This document shows positions 48,392-59,856 of a stretch of DNA of 64,000 nucleotides, one piece after another. Under the pieces are notes generated by a model. It had not been told where the DNA came from, searched no databases, and saw nothing but the letters and a program-made list of their open reading frames with translations. Source of the DNA: an uncultured Flavobacteriaceae bacterium. GTDB lineage: Bacteria > Bacteroidota > Bacteroidia > Flavobacteriales > Flavobacteriaceae. Numbering within the stretch: the first letter of the stretch is position 1; each line of letters opens with the position of its first letter. Location: positions 62,001-126,000 of the forward strand of contig CAJWAA010000004.1 of the NCBI GenBank assembly GCA_913020295.1, written 5' to 3'. The position numbers and the translations under genes are program-made.

Positions 48392-49852
48392 CTAAGGCTT
48401 TTTAGAAAATATTTCTTGTGCTATTTTATAATCATCAAAAGGGTGCTTTTCGCCTTTAACCTCTTGGTAATTTTCATGTCCTTTTCCAGCAATCAGAACT
48501 ACATCACCAGGTTGGGATATTTGGTAAGCGACCTTAATGGCCTCTTTTCGTTGTGGAATGCTCATGGTCTTTTTAAAATCTACAGGATCTACTCCTTCGC
48601 ACATTTGTTCGATAATTGTATCGGGATCTTCGTTGCGAGGATTGTCTGAAGTAAAAAGAACTTTAGAGCTCAATTGAGCAGCTATAGCACCCATTAAAGG
48701 TCTTTTTTCTTGATCCCTATTACCACCACAACCCACTACAGTGATCAAGCTTTCATTTTGGGTTCTTATCCTATTAATGGTGACCAAAACATTTTTTAAT
48801 GCATCGGGGGTATGGGCATAGTCCACTACAACTATAATTTTGTTTGGAGTTTCAAAAGTTTGGAATCTACCGGGGGCACTTTTCAATTGACTTATTGATT
48901 TCAAACTTTGCCACTCGTCTTCCCCTAGCAGTATTGTGGTTGCATAAACAGCCAATATATTATAGGCATTGAACTCACCTAAAATTTGAGTCCAAATTTC
49001 ATTTTGATTGATTTTTAATAGCATACCTTTAAATTGGCTCTCCAAAACTTGAGCGGAATAATCAGCATAACGATAAAGTGCGTAGGTTTGTATTTTTGCT
49101 TTGCAATTCTGGACCATTACTTTAGCATTTTTATCGTCTATATTGATCAGTGCAAAAGCAGAATCAGATAAGGAATCAAACAGAATTTTTTTGGTATCCC
49201 GATAAGCCTTAAAAGTATTATGGTAATCCAAGTGATCATGGGTAAGGTTGGTAAAAATGGCACCTTTGAATTCCAAACCTGTGATCCTTTTTTGGTGTAG
49301 ACCGTGTGAGGAGACCTCCATAAAACAATTTTCAATACCTTCACTAACCATGGCTCTGAGGTGCTTATTAATGGTCAGTGGGTCTGGGGTGGTATGGGTG
49401 GCTGAAAATTGATTGGTACCATATTGAATTGCAACGGTAGAGATGAGTCCTGCACCAGTTTTATTGATGTTAAAGAAATCAAACAACAAAGTAGCTACCG
49501 ATGTCTTTCCATTGGTACCAGTTATACCGATGAGCTTTAGTTGACTAGAAGGGTTATCGTAAAAATTAGAAGCCATCCAACCTAAAGCATCTCGACAATC
49601 ATTAACTTGGATAAAGACCACTCCTGGTTCTAATTTTTCAGGAAGTGTCTCACATATGATCGACTGAGCACCCAATTTAATAGCCTGGCCAATAAATTGA
49701 TGTCCATCTACTTGAGTACCCCTGACTGCAACATACATATTGCCGGGTTTAATGGTCCTTGAATCTGAAGAAATATCGTTTACCTCCACATCAGTTGACC
49801 CAGAAAGTCCTTGAATGGCTACTTTGTATAATATTTCTTTTAACTTTCTCAA
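48392..49852 (-). CDS. murE: UDP-MurNAc-L-Ala-D-Glu:meso-diaminopimelate ligase
   Basis: Adds the third residue of the peptidoglycan stem. It has 486 residues. The N-terminal domain has DSRTIKPGNMYVAVRG, the P-loop is GITGTNGKTSVATLL, and the central domain has TTPDPLTINKHL, EVSSHGLHQKR and NLTHDHLDYHNT. The DNPR motif in LFTSDNPRNEDPD marks meso-diaminopimelate as the amino acid rather than lysine. Its start overlaps by 4 bases the end of a small exported protein gene, where ftsI would normally be the direct neighbour. Confidence 0.95.
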   Translation of the reverse strand: MRKLKEILYKVAIQGLSGSTDVEVNDISSDSRTIKPGNMYVAVRGTQVDGHQFIGQAIKLGAQSIICETLPEKLEPGVVFIQVNDCRDALGWMASNFYDNPSSQLKLIGITGTNGKTSVATLLFDFFNINKTGAGLISTVAIQYGTNQFSATHTTPDPLTINKHLRAMVSEGIENCFMEVSSHGLHQKRITGLEFKGAIFTNLTHDHLDYHNTFKAYRDTKKILFDSLSDSAFALINIDDKNAKVMVQNCKAKIQTYALYRYADYSAQVLESQFKGMLLKINQNEIWTQILGEFNAYNILAVYATTILLGEDEWQSLKSISQLKSAPGRFQTFETPNKIIVVVDYAHTPDALKNVLVTINRIRTQNESLITVVGCGGNRDQEKRPLMGAIAAQLSSKVLFTSDNPRNEDPDTIIEQMCEGVDPVDFKKTMSIPQRKEAIKVAYQISQPGDVVLIAGKGHENYQEVKGEKHPFDDYKIAQEIFSKKP

Positions 49853-50253
49853 GACATCTTTTTTAGAATAGCGTTGTTAAAAAAAACATATCTTAAGGCC
49901 TTTACTAATTTTTTATAACTTACCTTTTCTGAAATAATACCATGAAATGAAGCAAGTGATAAGTTTCCATTTTCTGATTTAATTATTTTACCATTACCCA
50001 ATACTGAAGTTGTTCCAGTTGGCAAATTTTTATCTAATAATTTTACTATACCTCTAAGATCAAATGATATAATCTTTAAATCGCATTTAGATAATTTATA
50101 GGGGTCACAAAACTCGAAAAAAACAATATTTTTTTCAAGACTCATATAAATTTTAAAGTCCCGATTTGATAATGATTTGATTGTTTCGGATCTTTCTTGA
50201 GAATTTGAGATATTAATCAAAAAAAGTAGTATGATTACCAATATTCTTTTCAT
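49849..50253 (-). CDS. Small exported protein of unknown function inside the dcw cluster
   Basis: No family is recognised. The product has 134 residues with a clear signal peptide (MKRILVIILLFLINISNSQ) and no further membrane segment. The mature part is about 115 residues, Lys- and Ile-rich, and has exactly two cysteines (49 and 57, in FCDPYKLSKC), which could form a disulfide. A later stretch reads TTSVLGNGKIIKS. It overlaps ftsI (upstream) and murE (downstream) by 4 bases each (ATGA), so it is translated as part of the operon and is unlikely to be a spurious frame. A periplasmic role near FtsI is suggested by position only. Flavobacterial clusters I know have ftsI directly before murE. Confidence 0.8.
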   Translation of the reverse strand: MKRILVIILLFLINISNSQERSETIKSLSNRDFKIYMSLEKNIVFFEFCDPYKLSKCDLKIISFDLRGIVKLLDKNLPTGTTSVLGNGKIIKSENGNLSLASFHGIISEKVSYKKLVKALRYVFFNNAILKKMS

Positions 50254-52238
50254 GGCTTTAATGTGATTTTTTGATAGATATTAAAACTTGCTCCCGCATT
50301 AGGAGACTGTTTTTTAACTTTGCTTTTACCTTTGATCTCCACTTTAGGACCCATAGGCTCTAAAATTGATAAAGCTTCAATTTTAGTCATTCCTTTTAAA
50401 TCCGAAACCACTCCCTCAGAGGGTATAGCTTTCACCTTGGATGACAATTGGTAGATTTGTTCAGATTTTATGTAGATGGTTTTGGGAAGGGAATTGTAAA
50501 TTTTTTTTGCAATTTTCTTAAAAACAGGAGCTGCAACAGTAGAACCGTAATAACCTATTTTTTTATCTGGACGGTGAATGACAACAATACATGAGTATTC
50601 TGGTTTTTCAGCCGGGAAATACCCTACAAATGAGGCCACATATTGTACTTCTTTGTCTTTCCTGTTATAATCCAATTGACAGGTACCCGTTTTTCCAGCC
50701 ATTGCCAATTCACTGTCTCTAATATTATGCGCAGTACCCCATTTCTTATCCACCACATTGAACATCATTTTTTTTACTTTATCAATGGTTGACTGAGAGC
50801 ATAATGAAGGATTCAAAATAATCTGACTAAAAGCTTGGTTCGAGCTTTGACCGAAAGATTCAATCTTTTCAATAAATCTGGGTTTTAACATCACCCCGTT
50901 GTTGGCAATGGCATTGTAAAAAGTAAGTGTTTGAAGAGGGGTCATAGAAACACCATAGCCATAGGCCATCCAAGGCAAATCGAGTTGATCCCAGTCCTTT
51001 TTATCATCGGGATGAGGGATTTTTGGAATCCCTTCACCTCGTATGGGTAACCCTAATTGCTTGTTGACTCGCATGTTGTATAAACGATTGACAAATTTTT
51101 TAGGATTTTTACTGTAGTTTTCGTGAATTATTTTAACCATACCGGTATTGGAGGAAACCTCAAAAATTTTGGCTGCGGTAATAGTTCCATATCCCCCTTT
51201 TTTGGAATCACGTACTTTATATTTACCGAAAAAGGTAAGTTCACCATTGCCGGTTGGGATAAGTGTATTTTGATCAATGACTTTATCCTCTAAGGCTGCT
51301 ATCATTGACATTAGTTTAAAAGTGGAACCTGGTTCGTGGGACTCCCCCACAGCATAATTGAGTTTTTCGTAATAGGTACCCACTTTTGTCTTTCCCAAAT
51401 TGGCTATGGCTTTAATCTTTCCAGTTTTAGTTTCCATTACAACAACAGTTCCATGATCTGCCTTAAAATTTTCCATCTGCTCCAATAGTGCACTGTGAGC
51501 AATGTCCTGAATATTGACATTGATAGTAGTGTGAACGTTGTAACCTTCTGTAGGCTCCTTTTCATTGACATCATTAATGGGTTTCCACTGTCCACCAGCT
51601 ATTTTTTGCTTAAGCCTTTGCCCCGCTTCACCTTCAAGGTATTGGCTGAATGCGCCCTCTAACCCAACAAGTTTGTATCCGCCTTTTGGTTCTTCCGCTA
51701 CCCTACCTACAGTTCTTTCAGCCATTTTTCCCAAAGGGTGCTCTCTGACCATTTTATGTTCTATGATCAAACCTCCCTTGTATGACGGTAGTTTAAAAAG
51801 GGGAAGTTGTTTGATTTTTATTTTCTCCGAGTAAGTAAGGTCTCTAGCAATTAGTAAATACCTATGTCGATCTCTTACTCCTTTATCAAGTTTGTTAGAA
51901 ATCGATTTTTTGGAGCGATTCAATATTTCAGACAAACCATTGACCAGCTCTTTTTTATATTTTTGATAGAGGGATTTGGAGGGAACAGCGGCATCCCATC
52001 GCACTTCGTAACGGGCCATCGATGTGGCTAAAATACTTCCGTCATCTGCAAAAATATTTCCTCTACTAGGCTTAATTATATCTTTTTTTAGGGTACGTTT
52101 TGAGGCTATTTCTCGGTATTTATCCCCTTCAGAAAATTGTATCTGGATAAGCTTGGCAATCAAAATAAATGAAAAAAGTATCAACCCAAATGCAACAAAA
52201 TAACTTCGATTCATTACGTTTTTATTTCTTTGCTCCAT
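50250..52238 (-). CDS. ftsI: Septal transpeptidase FtsI (class B penicillin-binding protein) with PASTA domain
   Basis: Cross-links septal peptidoglycan with FtsW. It has 662 residues: one N-terminal transmembrane helix (about 12-30), a dimerisation domain with IKPSRGNIFADDGSILATS, and the transpeptidase domain with Ser305 in GSTFK (SxxK), SSNTG (SxN) and AGKTGT (KTG). The tail (about 600-662, SDLKGMTKIEALSILEPMG) is a PASTA domain, typical of Bacteroidota FtsI. It begins 2 bases after the ftsL gene and overlaps the unknown exported gene by 4 bases. Confidence 0.95.
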   Translation of the reverse strand: MEQRNKNVMNRSYFVAFGLILFSFILIAKLIQIQFSEGDKYREIASKRTLKKDIIKPSRGNIFADDGSILATSMARYEVRWDAAVPSKSLYQKYKKELVNGLSEILNRSKKSISNKLDKGVRDRHRYLLIARDLTYSEKIKIKQLPLFKLPSYKGGLIIEHKMVREHPLGKMAERTVGRVAEEPKGGYKLVGLEGAFSQYLEGEAGQRLKQKIAGGQWKPINDVNEKEPTEGYNVHTTINVNIQDIAHSALLEQMENFKADHGTVVVMETKTGKIKAIANLGKTKVGTYYEKLNYAVGESHEPGSTFKLMSMIAALEDKVIDQNTLIPTGNGELTFFGKYKVRDSKKGGYGTITAAKIFEVSSNTGMVKIIHENYSKNPKKFVNRLYNMRVNKQLGLPIRGEGIPKIPHPDDKKDWDQLDLPWMAYGYGVSMTPLQTLTFYNAIANNGVMLKPRFIEKIESFGQSSNQAFSQIILNPSLCSQSTIDKVKKMMFNVVDKKWGTAHNIRDSELAMAGKTGTCQLDYNRKDKEVQYVASFVGYFPAEKPEYSCIVVIHRPDKKIGYYGSTVAAPVFKKIAKKIYNSLPKTIYIKSEQIYQLSSKVKAIPSEGVVSDLKGMTKIEALSILEPMGPKVEIKGKSKVKKQSPNAGASFNIYQKITLKP

Positions 52239-55457: not shown

Positions 55458-55792
55458 TCGTCTTTTTTTAGGTTGAGTTTTTCTGCAAAATAATTACAAA
55501 ATTCCTTCATTGTTCCTGCCATTTTATCATCCTGAGTAGCACGCAAATATGTATCACTCATGGTGAGCAATGTTTGATGAAAAAACATTTTCATTTGATC
55601 AATAGGCATTTCCTTGATCCACAAATCCATCCTCAAGGTTTCCTGATTTTGCCCATCCCAAAGTGCCAGAAGCATAGCTTGTGCCTCTTCATGATCTACA
55701 CCTCCATCTGGTGCTGACCATATGATTTTTTCAGGTACTTTATTTTCATCCAGGCTTACTTCTATCCTGATAGGGCTTGTTTTCTTGGTCAT
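55454..55792 (-). CDS. gldC: Gliding motility protein GldC
   Basis: Small soluble protein of 112 residues linked to flavobacterial gliding. The pattern IRIEVSLDENKVPEKIIWSAPDGGVDHEEAQAMLLALWDGQNQETLRMDLWIKEMPIDQMK is spread over its first two thirds; no signal peptide is present. It directly follows gldB with a one-base overlap (TAATG), the arrangement known from Flavobacterium johnsoniae. GldC improves gliding but is not strictly required there; its biochemical function is not known. Confidence 0.92.
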   Translation of the reverse strand: MTKKTSPIRIEVSLDENKVPEKIIWSAPDGGVDHEEAQAMLLALWDGQNQETLRMDLWIKEMPIDQMKMFFHQTLLTMSDTYLRATQDDKMAGTMKEFCNYFAEKLNLKKDD

Positions 55793-56775
55793 TATCTTCT
55801 TGGTTTGTAATTAGATTTTGAGAATAGGGTTTGAGCTGGAAGATTCAATAGGGCACTAATCTCCGTATCCGGATAACGCTTCATATAAGATTTAATGATT
55901 TGCCATCCTATCCAAACACCAATCCTTCCAGGTGATTCGTTATCTATCTCTAAATAAAACTTTGAAAATGGTGAAGGTTCTATAAACCTATTGGATAAAG
56001 AAGGATCTGTATTGTATAGTAACTGCTTTTCAACAATATATTGCCACATATAGGCTTCATTGTCAATGACCCATTGTATTTGTTGTTCAGTATACAGCAT
56101 TTTTTCAGCATCAGAAGATCGCGGGAGAACCCAATCTTTTAAATATACTTGTTTTCCGTGGTAGATCATCTGTGACAAAAAAGATCTATCATTAGACGGA
56201 GGTATTTTGCTTTCAGCAAATTTACTTGCCACATGAGAGGGCAAAAAATTGATGTCCATTTCCTGTCGGATATACTGGGGAATACCCTCATACAGGTGGT
56301 GATCTGCACCCAAATAAGTATCAAGAGAGATCAATAAAAGGGAGTCGGCATAAATAGTTTTACTCTGATAGTCAACATTGTTGATCAATCCTATAACACT
56401 AGGGATTGTGGTTTCAGGAAAATAGTATTTCAAGTGCTTAAATAGATATTCCAAATTTTCCTCAATTGAAACCGTTGTAGTGAATTTTTTCTCTACATTT
56501 TCCAACAAAAGCAGTTGGAGGCTGTCTTTTTGTCTTTTGATCCAAACACTATCATCGAATTTCTCTGGAAAAAGATAGGGGTAAGTAGTTTTTAATACTT
56601 GAATATCATCGGCTTGGGACAAATGAAACTTCTTATCAAATCTATCAATTTTTATTTCCAAAGGAATCATAAGGATTTCAGATTTCTTTGTATTTGGGTC
56701 ATCACAACCAATTAAAAAGGAAACAAGGGGGATGATAAGAAAAAAACGAACATTTCGAAAAATAATCAATCTCAT
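55792..56775 (-). CDS. gldB: Gliding motility lipoprotein GldB
   Basis: Cell-envelope lipoprotein required for gliding in flavobacteria, 327 residues. The signal peptide ends LVSFLIGC24 with a clean lipobox. The mature protein has IDRFDKKFHL near its start, LKYYFPETTIPSVIGLINNVDYQSKTIYADSLLLISLDTYLGADHHLY in the middle and GRIGVWIGWQIIKSYM near the end. It pairs with gldC. A TAAATTTG box at 56823-56816 on the minus strand is a candidate -7 element 41 bases ahead of its start. Confidence 0.92.
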   Translation of the reverse strand: MRLIIFRNVRFFLIIPLVSFLIGCDDPNTKKSEILMIPLEIKIDRFDKKFHLSQADDIQVLKTTYPYLFPEKFDDSVWIKRQKDSLQLLLLENVEKKFTTTVSIEENLEYLFKHLKYYFPETTIPSVIGLINNVDYQSKTIYADSLLLISLDTYLGADHHLYEGIPQYIRQEMDINFLPSHVASKFAESKIPPSNDRSFLSQMIYHGKQVYLKDWVLPRSSDAEKMLYTEQQIQWVIDNEAYMWQYIVEKQLLYNTDPSLSNRFIEPSPFSKFYLEIDNESPGRIGVWIGWQIIKSYMKRYPDTEISALLNLPAQTLFSKSNYKPRR

Positions 56776-57747: not shown

Positions 57748-59856
57748 TTACCACCCGGAATTACCGTCAAATTTTGCATGAATGCAAGTAACAGTTAGTT
57801 GTCCATATCCATCTACATGGCCTCGCAGTTGCCAAGTAGGAACTGGGTCATATTGAGTAGAGGATCCACTTCCCATTGGAGTAATGTAAAATTCAAAATT
57901 ACTATAGGTTGAACCAAGCGCAATACTTCCCTCCATTAATGATGTAAAACCATCACTCCAGATTGGTGTAAACCGATCATTATAACCACCACCATCTCCC
58001 AGCCCATATGTCATATTAGATTTTTGAATATATGTTTCAGTAGGTGAATATTCACCACTACTTCCACCAGATCTTATAACCCCAGATATAAACCAATTAT
58101 CCACAATTTCAGAAGATGAAGATTGTTTAACTTGAATTGTATTATATGTGGTATTCCACGAAAATCTTAAGACTCCAAGCTCAAATAAAACAACATCATT
58201 TGCTGCATTTGTTTTGACTTGAGCTGATTTAATTTCAGAATTGTTGGATTGTTGTAGAGCACTTATTTCACTTTTCAAATCTCCAATTAATTGCATTAGA
58301 GAAGTTATCGTTCCATTGTCATTTAATGTCAATTGATCACCACTCCCTTTAAAACCCGTAGCAGAAACAATTCCTGAGGTGGTTGTATCACCATTATACA
58401 TCACTTTAAAAGCGTCAGACCTAGCGCTAGAAGCTGAACCATTTCCAATTACAAAAGCTGGATTGGAAGTTGAAAATGAATCTGCACTTGTTGCTGAAGA
58501 ACTACTTAAGTTATATCTTCCAATTACTAAGGAGCCCCAATCGCTTGCAGTTGTTCTATTGCCCATAGTTACAGAATAATACCCACTTGCAGTGGTGTAT
58601 CGACCTATTGCAGTAGAGCCATATCCACTTGCCACTGTGTAGGAACCAAGTGCAGTAGAGTAATATTCACTGGCTGTGGTATTGAAGCCACTAGCAAAAG
58701 AGCCATAACCTGTTGCACCTCTAATCGAACTACTTTGACCTTGTTTACTTAAATCAACTGCATCACCTCCAATATCTCCGTGATTTGAAGAGTTTGATGA
58801 AGATAGTCTAACTCCTGTATTGTTATTTTCACTAACCGAAGCCAAAACACCAATTTCGGATACCCCATGTAATAGGTTTAATTCGGAAGCTGTTGAAGTA
58901 ATAGCTGTTCCTCCAATATTTAACCCTGCTGCAGATACAACCCCTGAGGTATTTACAAGGGTTACATCTGCATTTCCTAATTGGATAGTGTTTGACGATG
59001 TAACAATTGCATTTGCACCTATAGCAGTAGAGTTTGTAATTGAGATTCCGTTTATCAATGTATTTGCCCCAAGTGTGGTTACATTTGAATGATTAACAGA
59101 AGAGCTCCCCTGATTTTGATAATTAGCTCTATAACCAATATTTACATTATTAGAACCAGACTCATTGTTGTAACCAGAATATTCTCCGATATTGACGTTC
59201 CTACTTCCAGTTTCATTAAAAATAGAATTCGCATAACCAATTGAGACATTTGAATTTCCTGAAGTATTATTGGATAGACTTAAACTCCCAATCGATACAT
59301 TTGTTGCCCCTCCAGCATTATCTTTCATGGAATCTTCACCTATAGATATATTTCTTGAAGTACCATTTGCGTTTAACAGAGAGTTTTTTCCAATTGCAAT
59401 ATTGTTATGACCTCCATTAGATTGACCAATTATTGTACCGATTTGGATATTTGAATTACCTGTAACAAAAGTTTGAGATGATATATTTGTAATTTTAGCA
59501 TACTCAGCAATAGGAACGGTTGCAACTTGCTTAGTTCCCATATCCTGATATCCATTTCCTGTATCTAACTCTTCTTTCATAAACACACTCTGTGACCAAT
59601 CTATATTTGAGTAAGTACCATTAACAATTGTTCCGCCTCCAACAGACAAATTAACGACCCCATCAGCGGGAATATTAACTATATGTTCCTCAACAAAAAA
59701 AGGTGTAGCAGTAGTCGACTGATACATAAGTGAAAACTTCACTTTAACCTGATTATTAGAAATTATTTGTCCACTTGAGTGTTTTATTAAAGCCTGGTAG
59801 TTAAATTGACTATTTACCCCGATTGATACCAGCAAAAAAATAATTGTTTTCCTCAT
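57748..59856 (-). CDS. Large exported beta-roll repeat protein, adhesin-like, function unknown
   Basis: Exported protein of 702 residues. A signal peptide (1-16) precedes a domain (about 17-122) frequent at the start of Bacteroidota surface proteins: FNYQALIKHSSGQIISNNQ, TATPFFVEEH and VATVPIAEYAK. Six 17-residue repeats with NVxIG strands follow (152-253), then a TASELNLLHGV linker (322-332), five 14-residue YadA-head-like repeats (386-455), a short coiled coil (519-536, LMQLIGDLKSEISALQ) and a C-terminal domain of about 150 residues I do not recognise. There is no YadA barrel and no evident type IX secretion tail, so anchoring is unclear. It lies between nadE and dnaG with gaps of 115 and 122 bases. 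Confidence 0.8.
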   Translation of the reverse strand: MRKTIIFLLVSIGVNSQFNYQALIKHSSGQIISNNQVKVKFSLMYQSTTATPFFVEEHIVNIPADGVVNLSVGGGTIVNGTYSNIDWSQSVFMKEELDTGNGYQDMGTKQVATVPIAEYAKITNISSQTFVTGNSNIQIGTIIGQSNGGHNNIAIGKNSLLNANGTSRNISIGEDSMKDNAGGATNVSIGSLSLSNNTSGNSNVSIGYANSIFNETGSRNVNIGEYSGYNNESGSNNVNIGYRANYQNQGSSSVNHSNVTTLGANTLINGISITNSTAIGANAIVTSSNTIQLGNADVTLVNTSGVVSAAGLNIGGTAITSTASELNLLHGVSEIGVLASVSENNNTGVRLSSSNSSNHGDIGGDAVDLSKQGQSSSIRGATGYGSFASGFNTTASEYYSTALGSYTVASGYGSTAIGRYTTASGYYSVTMGNRTTASDWGSLVIGRYNLSSSSATSADSFSTSNPAFVIGNGSASSARSDAFKVMYNGDTTTSGIVSATGFKGSGDQLTLNDNGTITSLMQLIGDLKSEISALQQSNNSEIKSAQVKTNAANDVVLFELGVLRFSWNTTYNTIQVKQSSSSEIVDNWFISGVIRSGGSSGEYSPTETYIQKSNMTYGLGDGGGYNDRFTPIWSDGFTSLMEGSIALGSTYSNFEFYITPMGSGSSTQYDPVPTWQLRGHVDGYGQLTVTCIHAKFDGNSGW
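58492..58701 (-). repeat. Five 42-base units encoding 14-residue YadA-head-like repeats
   Basis: Codons for residues 386-455. The units are SFASGFNTTASEYY, STALGSYTVASGYG, STAIGRYTTASGYY, SVTMGNRTTASDWG and a looser SLVIGRYNLSSSSA. Each has Gly at position 5 and small residues at 10-11, the left-handed beta-roll pattern of trimeric autotransporter heads. Confidence 0.85.
59098..59403 (-). repeat. Six 51-base units encoding 17-residue NVxIG repeats
   Basis: Codons for residues 152-253 in perfect 17-residue register: NIAIGKNSLLNANGTSR, NISIGEDSMKDNAGGAT, NVSIGSLSLSNNTSGNS, NVSIGYANSIFNETGSR, NVNIGEYSGYNNESGSN and NVNIGYRANYQNQGSSS. The strand position is fixed while the turns vary, so the array is old rather than a recent DNA duplication. 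Confidence 0.85.

Follow-up and report, generated by a model that had tools for sequence, protein, structure and literature searches.

PorE and PorP of P. gingivalis form a complex with a type B CTD protein (PorE-PorP-PG1035); in it, PorE is regarded as the link from PorP to the cell wall (PMC9143113). The same parts, also known as porP-like/porE-like pairs in F. johnsoniae, make up the home operon of the relatives of the small gene described here. The described complex has no small exported fourth gene, however; such a gene was seen only in two genera (g1 and g100), where it adjoins SPOR-extended PorE-like proteins, and the copy that concerns us lies outside any such operon. A further T9SS parallel is offered by SprF and PorG, which are disulfide-linked to GldK (PMC12635249). 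A periplasm-exposed cysteine pair in a T9SS-linked protein is the common feature, but as an analogy only: SprF and PorG are outer-membrane proteins and the SprF cysteines stand two residues apart in its C-terminal tail, whereas the protein studied here is predicted to be soluble and has its cysteines eight residues apart.

The second system of interest is the minimal mobile element, of which dca is a candidate in Neisseria. According to the part of PMC1538595 that cites Saunders and Snyder 2002 and Snyder et al. 2001, dca is a dcw-cluster gene flanked by murE and murF. Our locus likewise has one accessory gene between conserved dcw genes, present or absent depending on the relative, and likewise apparently exchanged through its conserved flanks, as a dS contrast and a short shared tract indicate here. 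The likeness is one of position: dca occupies the murE/murF site, where N. lactamica has an alternative gene, whereas our gene occupies the ftsI/murE site, and the junctions of 21 genus members and 28 further genera held no alternative gene, the site being either filled by this gene or empty. Because no genes alternate at the site, we regard the insert as working like a minimal mobile element but do not file it as one.

Results

A coupled gene between ftsI and murE

The window, i.e. the whole stretch of 64,000 nucleotides analysed, comes from an uncultured Flavobacteriaceae bacterium (genome G000; other genomes are labelled G002, G008, G020 etc.). Its ftsI-murE junction contains the following features:

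50250..52238, minus strand: ftsI, with transpeptidase, dimerisation and PASTA domains (Pfam)
50250..50253, minus strand: ATGA shared with the ftsI end, an overlap that came with the insert (junction comparison)
49849..50253, minus strand: inserted gene for a 134-aa exported protein; G008, G020 and G002 have orthologs at this position
50200..50253, minus strand: signal peptide, residues 1-18, cut predicted by eye before Q19 (sequence)
49879..50199, minus strand: conserved core, residues 19-125, common to the T9SS-operon homologs (alignment A1)
50107..50109, minus strand: codon of the invariant Cys49 (alignment)
50083..50085, minus strand: codon of the invariant Cys57 (alignment)
49849..49878, minus strand: C-terminal tail NNAILKKMS-stop, weakly constrained and missing from the T9SS-operon homologs, which stop at ...FF
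49849..49855, minus strand: GTCTTGA, relic of the original ftsI 3' end, now the insert's own stop (junction comparison)
49849..49852, minus strand: TTGA shared with the start of murE, a carry-over from the former ftsI-murE overlap (junction comparison)
48392..49852, minus strand: murE, TTG start (Pfam)

The open reading frame is thus as the first-pass annotation had described it: 134 aa, a signal peptide and two cysteines (C49 and C57), between ftsI and murE. Of the 4-base ATGA overlaps that it had placed on both sides, the one with ftsI is correct; the one with murE is a TTGA, and murE starts at TTG. The position of the gene supports the coupled translation with its neighbours that had been proposed. 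On reading the sequence, the hydrophobic N-terminal signal ends ...NISNSQ/ERS and no lipobox cysteine is seen at the predicted cleavage site. The frame is not a chance one: three other genomes have intact orthologs (83-91% identity) at this site, and its dN/dS lies significantly below 1 (see below).

Scans with Pfam and NCBIfam assigned the protein to no family above cut-off and revealed neither a division domain (FtsL, FtsQ/POTRA or FtsN/SPOR) nor a membrane anchor, only the N-terminal signal sequence; PHROGs and PADLOC scans gave no credible family either. Two weak matches were discarded: the PorU N-terminal domain (NF052318) scored 14.5 bits against a cut-off of 40 and disappeared once the signal peptide was removed, and the PADLOC NsnC match, attributed to chance, came from just two members (E 7e-4) and weakened when the signal peptide was left out. 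The best E value in a PDB profile search was 0.59. AlphaFold2, run on a five-sequence alignment, was uninformative, with a pLDDT of 49 for the full length and 47 for the mature part. The earlier label of 'unknown exported protein' stands.

Other features near the locus were noted in passing. The gliding-motility lipoprotein gene gldB lies at 55792-56775 (minus strand), about 3.5 kb from ftsI, and an exported 702-aa protein with YadA_head repeats is encoded at 57748-59856 (minus strand). FtsI is about 610 residues long in one branch of the genus (loci L039 and L041-L044, in G005, G006, G007, G019 and G014), and the copy checked, that of G006 (L041), lacks the C-terminal PASTA domain present in the FtsI of the window.

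The relatives lie in T9SS operons

The sole detectable homologs are 34-41% identical to the insert protein, and both cysteines are among the 24 invariant positions. They occur in four other members of the genus (G003, G006, G007 and G014) and in two genomes of another genus (G124 and G332), all six directly downstream of a large OmpA gene. Where the home operon could be read (G006, G014, G332 and G124), it consists of a giant T9SS type B adhesin, PorP/SprF, the OmpA protein and, last, the homolog; in G003 and G007 the OmpA gene is likewise upstream. Pfam and NCBIfam recognise a T9SS type B sorting domain in the adhesin, with DUF11/DUF7507 repeats in G006. The OmpA protein (about 980-1140 residues, of the peptidoglycan-binding kind) combines SPOR, PD40 and OmpA domains with a PorE/CHU_0125-like C-terminal part, and other PorE-like genes of the family are followed by unrelated genes. 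By its position, the family would therefore be a fourth, periplasmic part of the PorE-PorP-type B module in these genera, a T9SS-linked function drawn from gene neighbours in two of them (g1 and g100).

The window's own copy sits in dcw, outside any adhesin/PorP/PorE-like operon, and may be a stand-alone descendant or cousin of the T9SS-operon homologs. None of the four genomes with a dcw copy has a close counterpart of the SPOR/PorE-like OmpA protein, so that copy functions in the absence of its original partner and the T9SS role need not transfer to it. The window's genome does have another PorP/OmpA pair. As a separate observation, a giant IgGFc_binding-domain protein is encoded there divergently from a PorP/OmpA(SPOR) pair (L099:9158-14001). 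PorE-like proteins (E <1e-50) are present in 265 of 299 family genomes and were not seen in the sampled genus members G000, G004 and G021.

A lineage-specific insertion

Close orthologs were sought among the proteins of all 22 genomes of the genus and 397 genomes of the family, and besides the window's genome only G008, G020 and G002 have one. A comparison of the ftsI-murE junction across Flavobacteriaceae had been suggested by the first-pass annotation, and we carried it out by locating ftsI, which succeeded in 21 of the 22 genus genomes, and reading the junction directly. The gene is present in 4/21 (G000, G008, G020 and both contigs of G002; three carrier genomes are only 65-79% complete), and in the remaining 17 murE directly follows ftsI, G018 being counted as empty since its ftsI-murE spacing is too small for the gene. 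Nor was it found at the junction in any of 28 other Flavobacteriaceae genera, where ftsI and murE are adjacent and nearly always overlap. A profile search with alignment A1 detected no further family member in 396 genomes of the order. With the junction empty in 17/21 genus members and 28 other genera, the gene is a lineage-specific insertion and not an ancient dcw gene.

Comparison of the junctions places the insertion within the last two codons of ftsI, about seven bases before its end. An empty relative reads, for example, ...TTAGAGCTGTCTTGAAAAAGTTAAAAG, in which TGA ends ftsI and TTG starts murE; a carrier reads ...TTAGAGCT / ATGAAAAGA...(gene)...AAAAAGCT / GTCTTGA. In most carriers AGCT is found on both sides of the insert, a repeat that could reflect a 4-bp duplication or else microhomology. 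What used to be the end of FtsI now forms the final residues of the insert protein, 'MS' in the window and 'LS' in relatives, together with its stop. Since the old, empty ftsI-murE junction is itself a TTGA overlap, the murE overlap is older than the gene: it was inherited from ftsI and did not evolve for the insert and, as a recycled ftsI stop, it is uninformative on co-adaptation.

Homologs elsewhere end right after ...VFF or ...IFF; the carriers run nine residues further. Loss of one base from a T-run (GTT TTT TTT TAA to GTT TTT TTT AAC) would explain the readthrough. The resulting tail has a pN/pS of 0.93 vs 0.23 for the core. The idea that the tail copies a longer piece of ftsI than its final 10 nt was rejected, the match not rising above shuffles.

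Foreign composition and probable recent spread

The GC content of the insert is 25% vs 38% for ftsI and murE, below that of every other 405-nt stretch sampled in the 64-kb window. The gene being so AT-rich, Nei-Gojobori dS was replaced by dS from our own GY94/F3x4 codon-model fit, which allows for skewed composition. The divergent carriers G000 and G008 differ by a dS of 1.65 in ftsI and 2.0 in murE but of just 0.42 in the insert, about one quarter of the flank values. Its silent-site rate is not itself slow, because in the close pair G008-G020 the three genes agree (0.25, 0.22 and 0.19, respectively). Carriers do not form a single clade on the ftsI or murE trees, in which the G002 contigs were treated cautiously, and all fall inside one supported subclade. 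In the G000-G008 comparison, ftsI is 12-14% diverged over its last 120 nt and about 20% elsewhere, and murE shows no difference in its first 30 nt. Together, these comparisons point to a recent spread of the insert by recombination, a short closer tract being what homologous-recombination transfer of a short segment would leave. The inserted gene is all that separates ftsI from murE in the carriers, with no integrase, and no relatives were found in viral contigs.

The two G002 contigs, C37 (L025/L030) and C63 (L024/L047), look like reciprocal chimeras with a join within the insert (about nt 135-225); their ftsI/murE mosaic was set aside as a biological signal and read as a probable assembly chimera. 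In the C37 copy (L021, L025) the insert starts with ATT instead of ATG and ftsI continues to ...ELLKEF-stop.

The insert is under purifying selection

Between genome copies, the codon model gives the insert a dN/dS of 0.09-0.23, and all comparisons reject 1 (likelihood ratio at least 16). This includes G008-G020 (0.15, likelihood ratio 18.8 against neutrality), a pair that shares the dcw site by descent; for G000-G008 the value is 0.11. Thus, the inserted gene is functional at its present site and the frame is selected, as the first-pass annotation had maintained. The same annotation would have given up its hypothesis had close relatives lacked the gene and dN/dS been near 1: close relatives do lack it, but dN/dS is far below 1.

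Discussion

On balance, we favour the view that a single-gene cassette moved into the dcw operon, i.e. that its product is an orphan, mobile accessory protein of the periplasm that stems from a T9SS type B anchoring module. What was inserted, a small gene encoding an exported protein with two invariant cysteines, landed some seven bases before the end of ftsI and took over the old ftsI stop, so that the murE overlap survived while a new one, ATGA, arose at the ftsI end. The cassette would then have been passed on by homologous recombination via the flanking genes, in the manner of a minimal mobile element, and the dcw operon may give it steady, coupled expression. The protein itself would be soluble and periplasmic, its two cysteines probably joined in an intramolecular disulfide. 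Its task in the home operon may be to help the PorP-PorE complex anchor a type B adhesin; outside that operon, as in the carriers, its target would perhaps be a different PorP/OmpA pair. For the function of the protein, an accessory role in T9SS is the most likely reading, its rivals being orphan immunity and a role in the divisome.

Patchy spread without a cognate operon is typical of immunity and antagonist genes, and an AT-rich gene that recombines and has no home operon in its four carriers could be an orphan of this kind, guarding against or blocking a secreted product or T9SS adhesin of relatives. We consider this unlikely: no toxin domain was recognised in the adhesin, which has DUF11-type repeats and ends in a type B sorting domain, and the gene comes after the OmpA gene, not the adhesin gene.

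The partner or modulator of the divisome that the first-pass annotation had hypothesised would bind FtsI/FtsW, FtsL or FtsQ in the periplasm and tune septal synthesis, having been recruited for co-expression. Its coupled position and selected frame fit such a role. SPOR domains bind septal peptidoglycan in other bacteria, so the SPOR domains of the home-operon partner would also offer a possible septal link. We nevertheless find it quite unlikely because (i), most close relatives and all 28 other genera lack the gene, (ii), the gene is foreign and recently spread, (iii), its homologs belong to T9SS adhesin operons and were not seen in dcw outside one subclade and, (iv), the murE overlap is inherited. 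The dcw location is an acquired address and therefore no evidence of a division function; a role of the insert protein at FtsI is possible but unsupported. A bolder variant, in which the small disulfide-bearing family is a fourth T9SS adhesin-anchoring part at SPOR-bound septal peptidoglycan and the mobile dcw copy links anchoring to septal wall synthesis, seems to us a long shot.

As for the history of the gene, the identical insertion point in all carriers, all within one supported subclade, might suggest an ancient dcw gene of that subclade, inherited vertically and lost several times; this is improbable given the low dS of the insert relative to its flanks between G000 and the G008 group and a shared tract that reaches only about 120 nt into ftsI and 30 nt into murE. 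That the gene is a selectively neutral passenger heading for loss, as the missing start codon of one G002 copy and the weakly constrained tail might hint, is highly improbable in view of the dN/dS of the G008-G020 and G000-G008 pairs and of frames that are all open.

Acquisition of a cassette from a T9SS module thus remains our preferred explanation. It would mean that even in the division operon whose order is most conserved, a tightly coupled gene may have arrived recently, and that a dcw position with stop-start overlaps is no evidence of function, the overlap here having been inherited from the interrupted gene. It also puts forward, as a candidate accessory anchoring factor, a small uncharacterised family that goes with T9SS type B adhesin modules.
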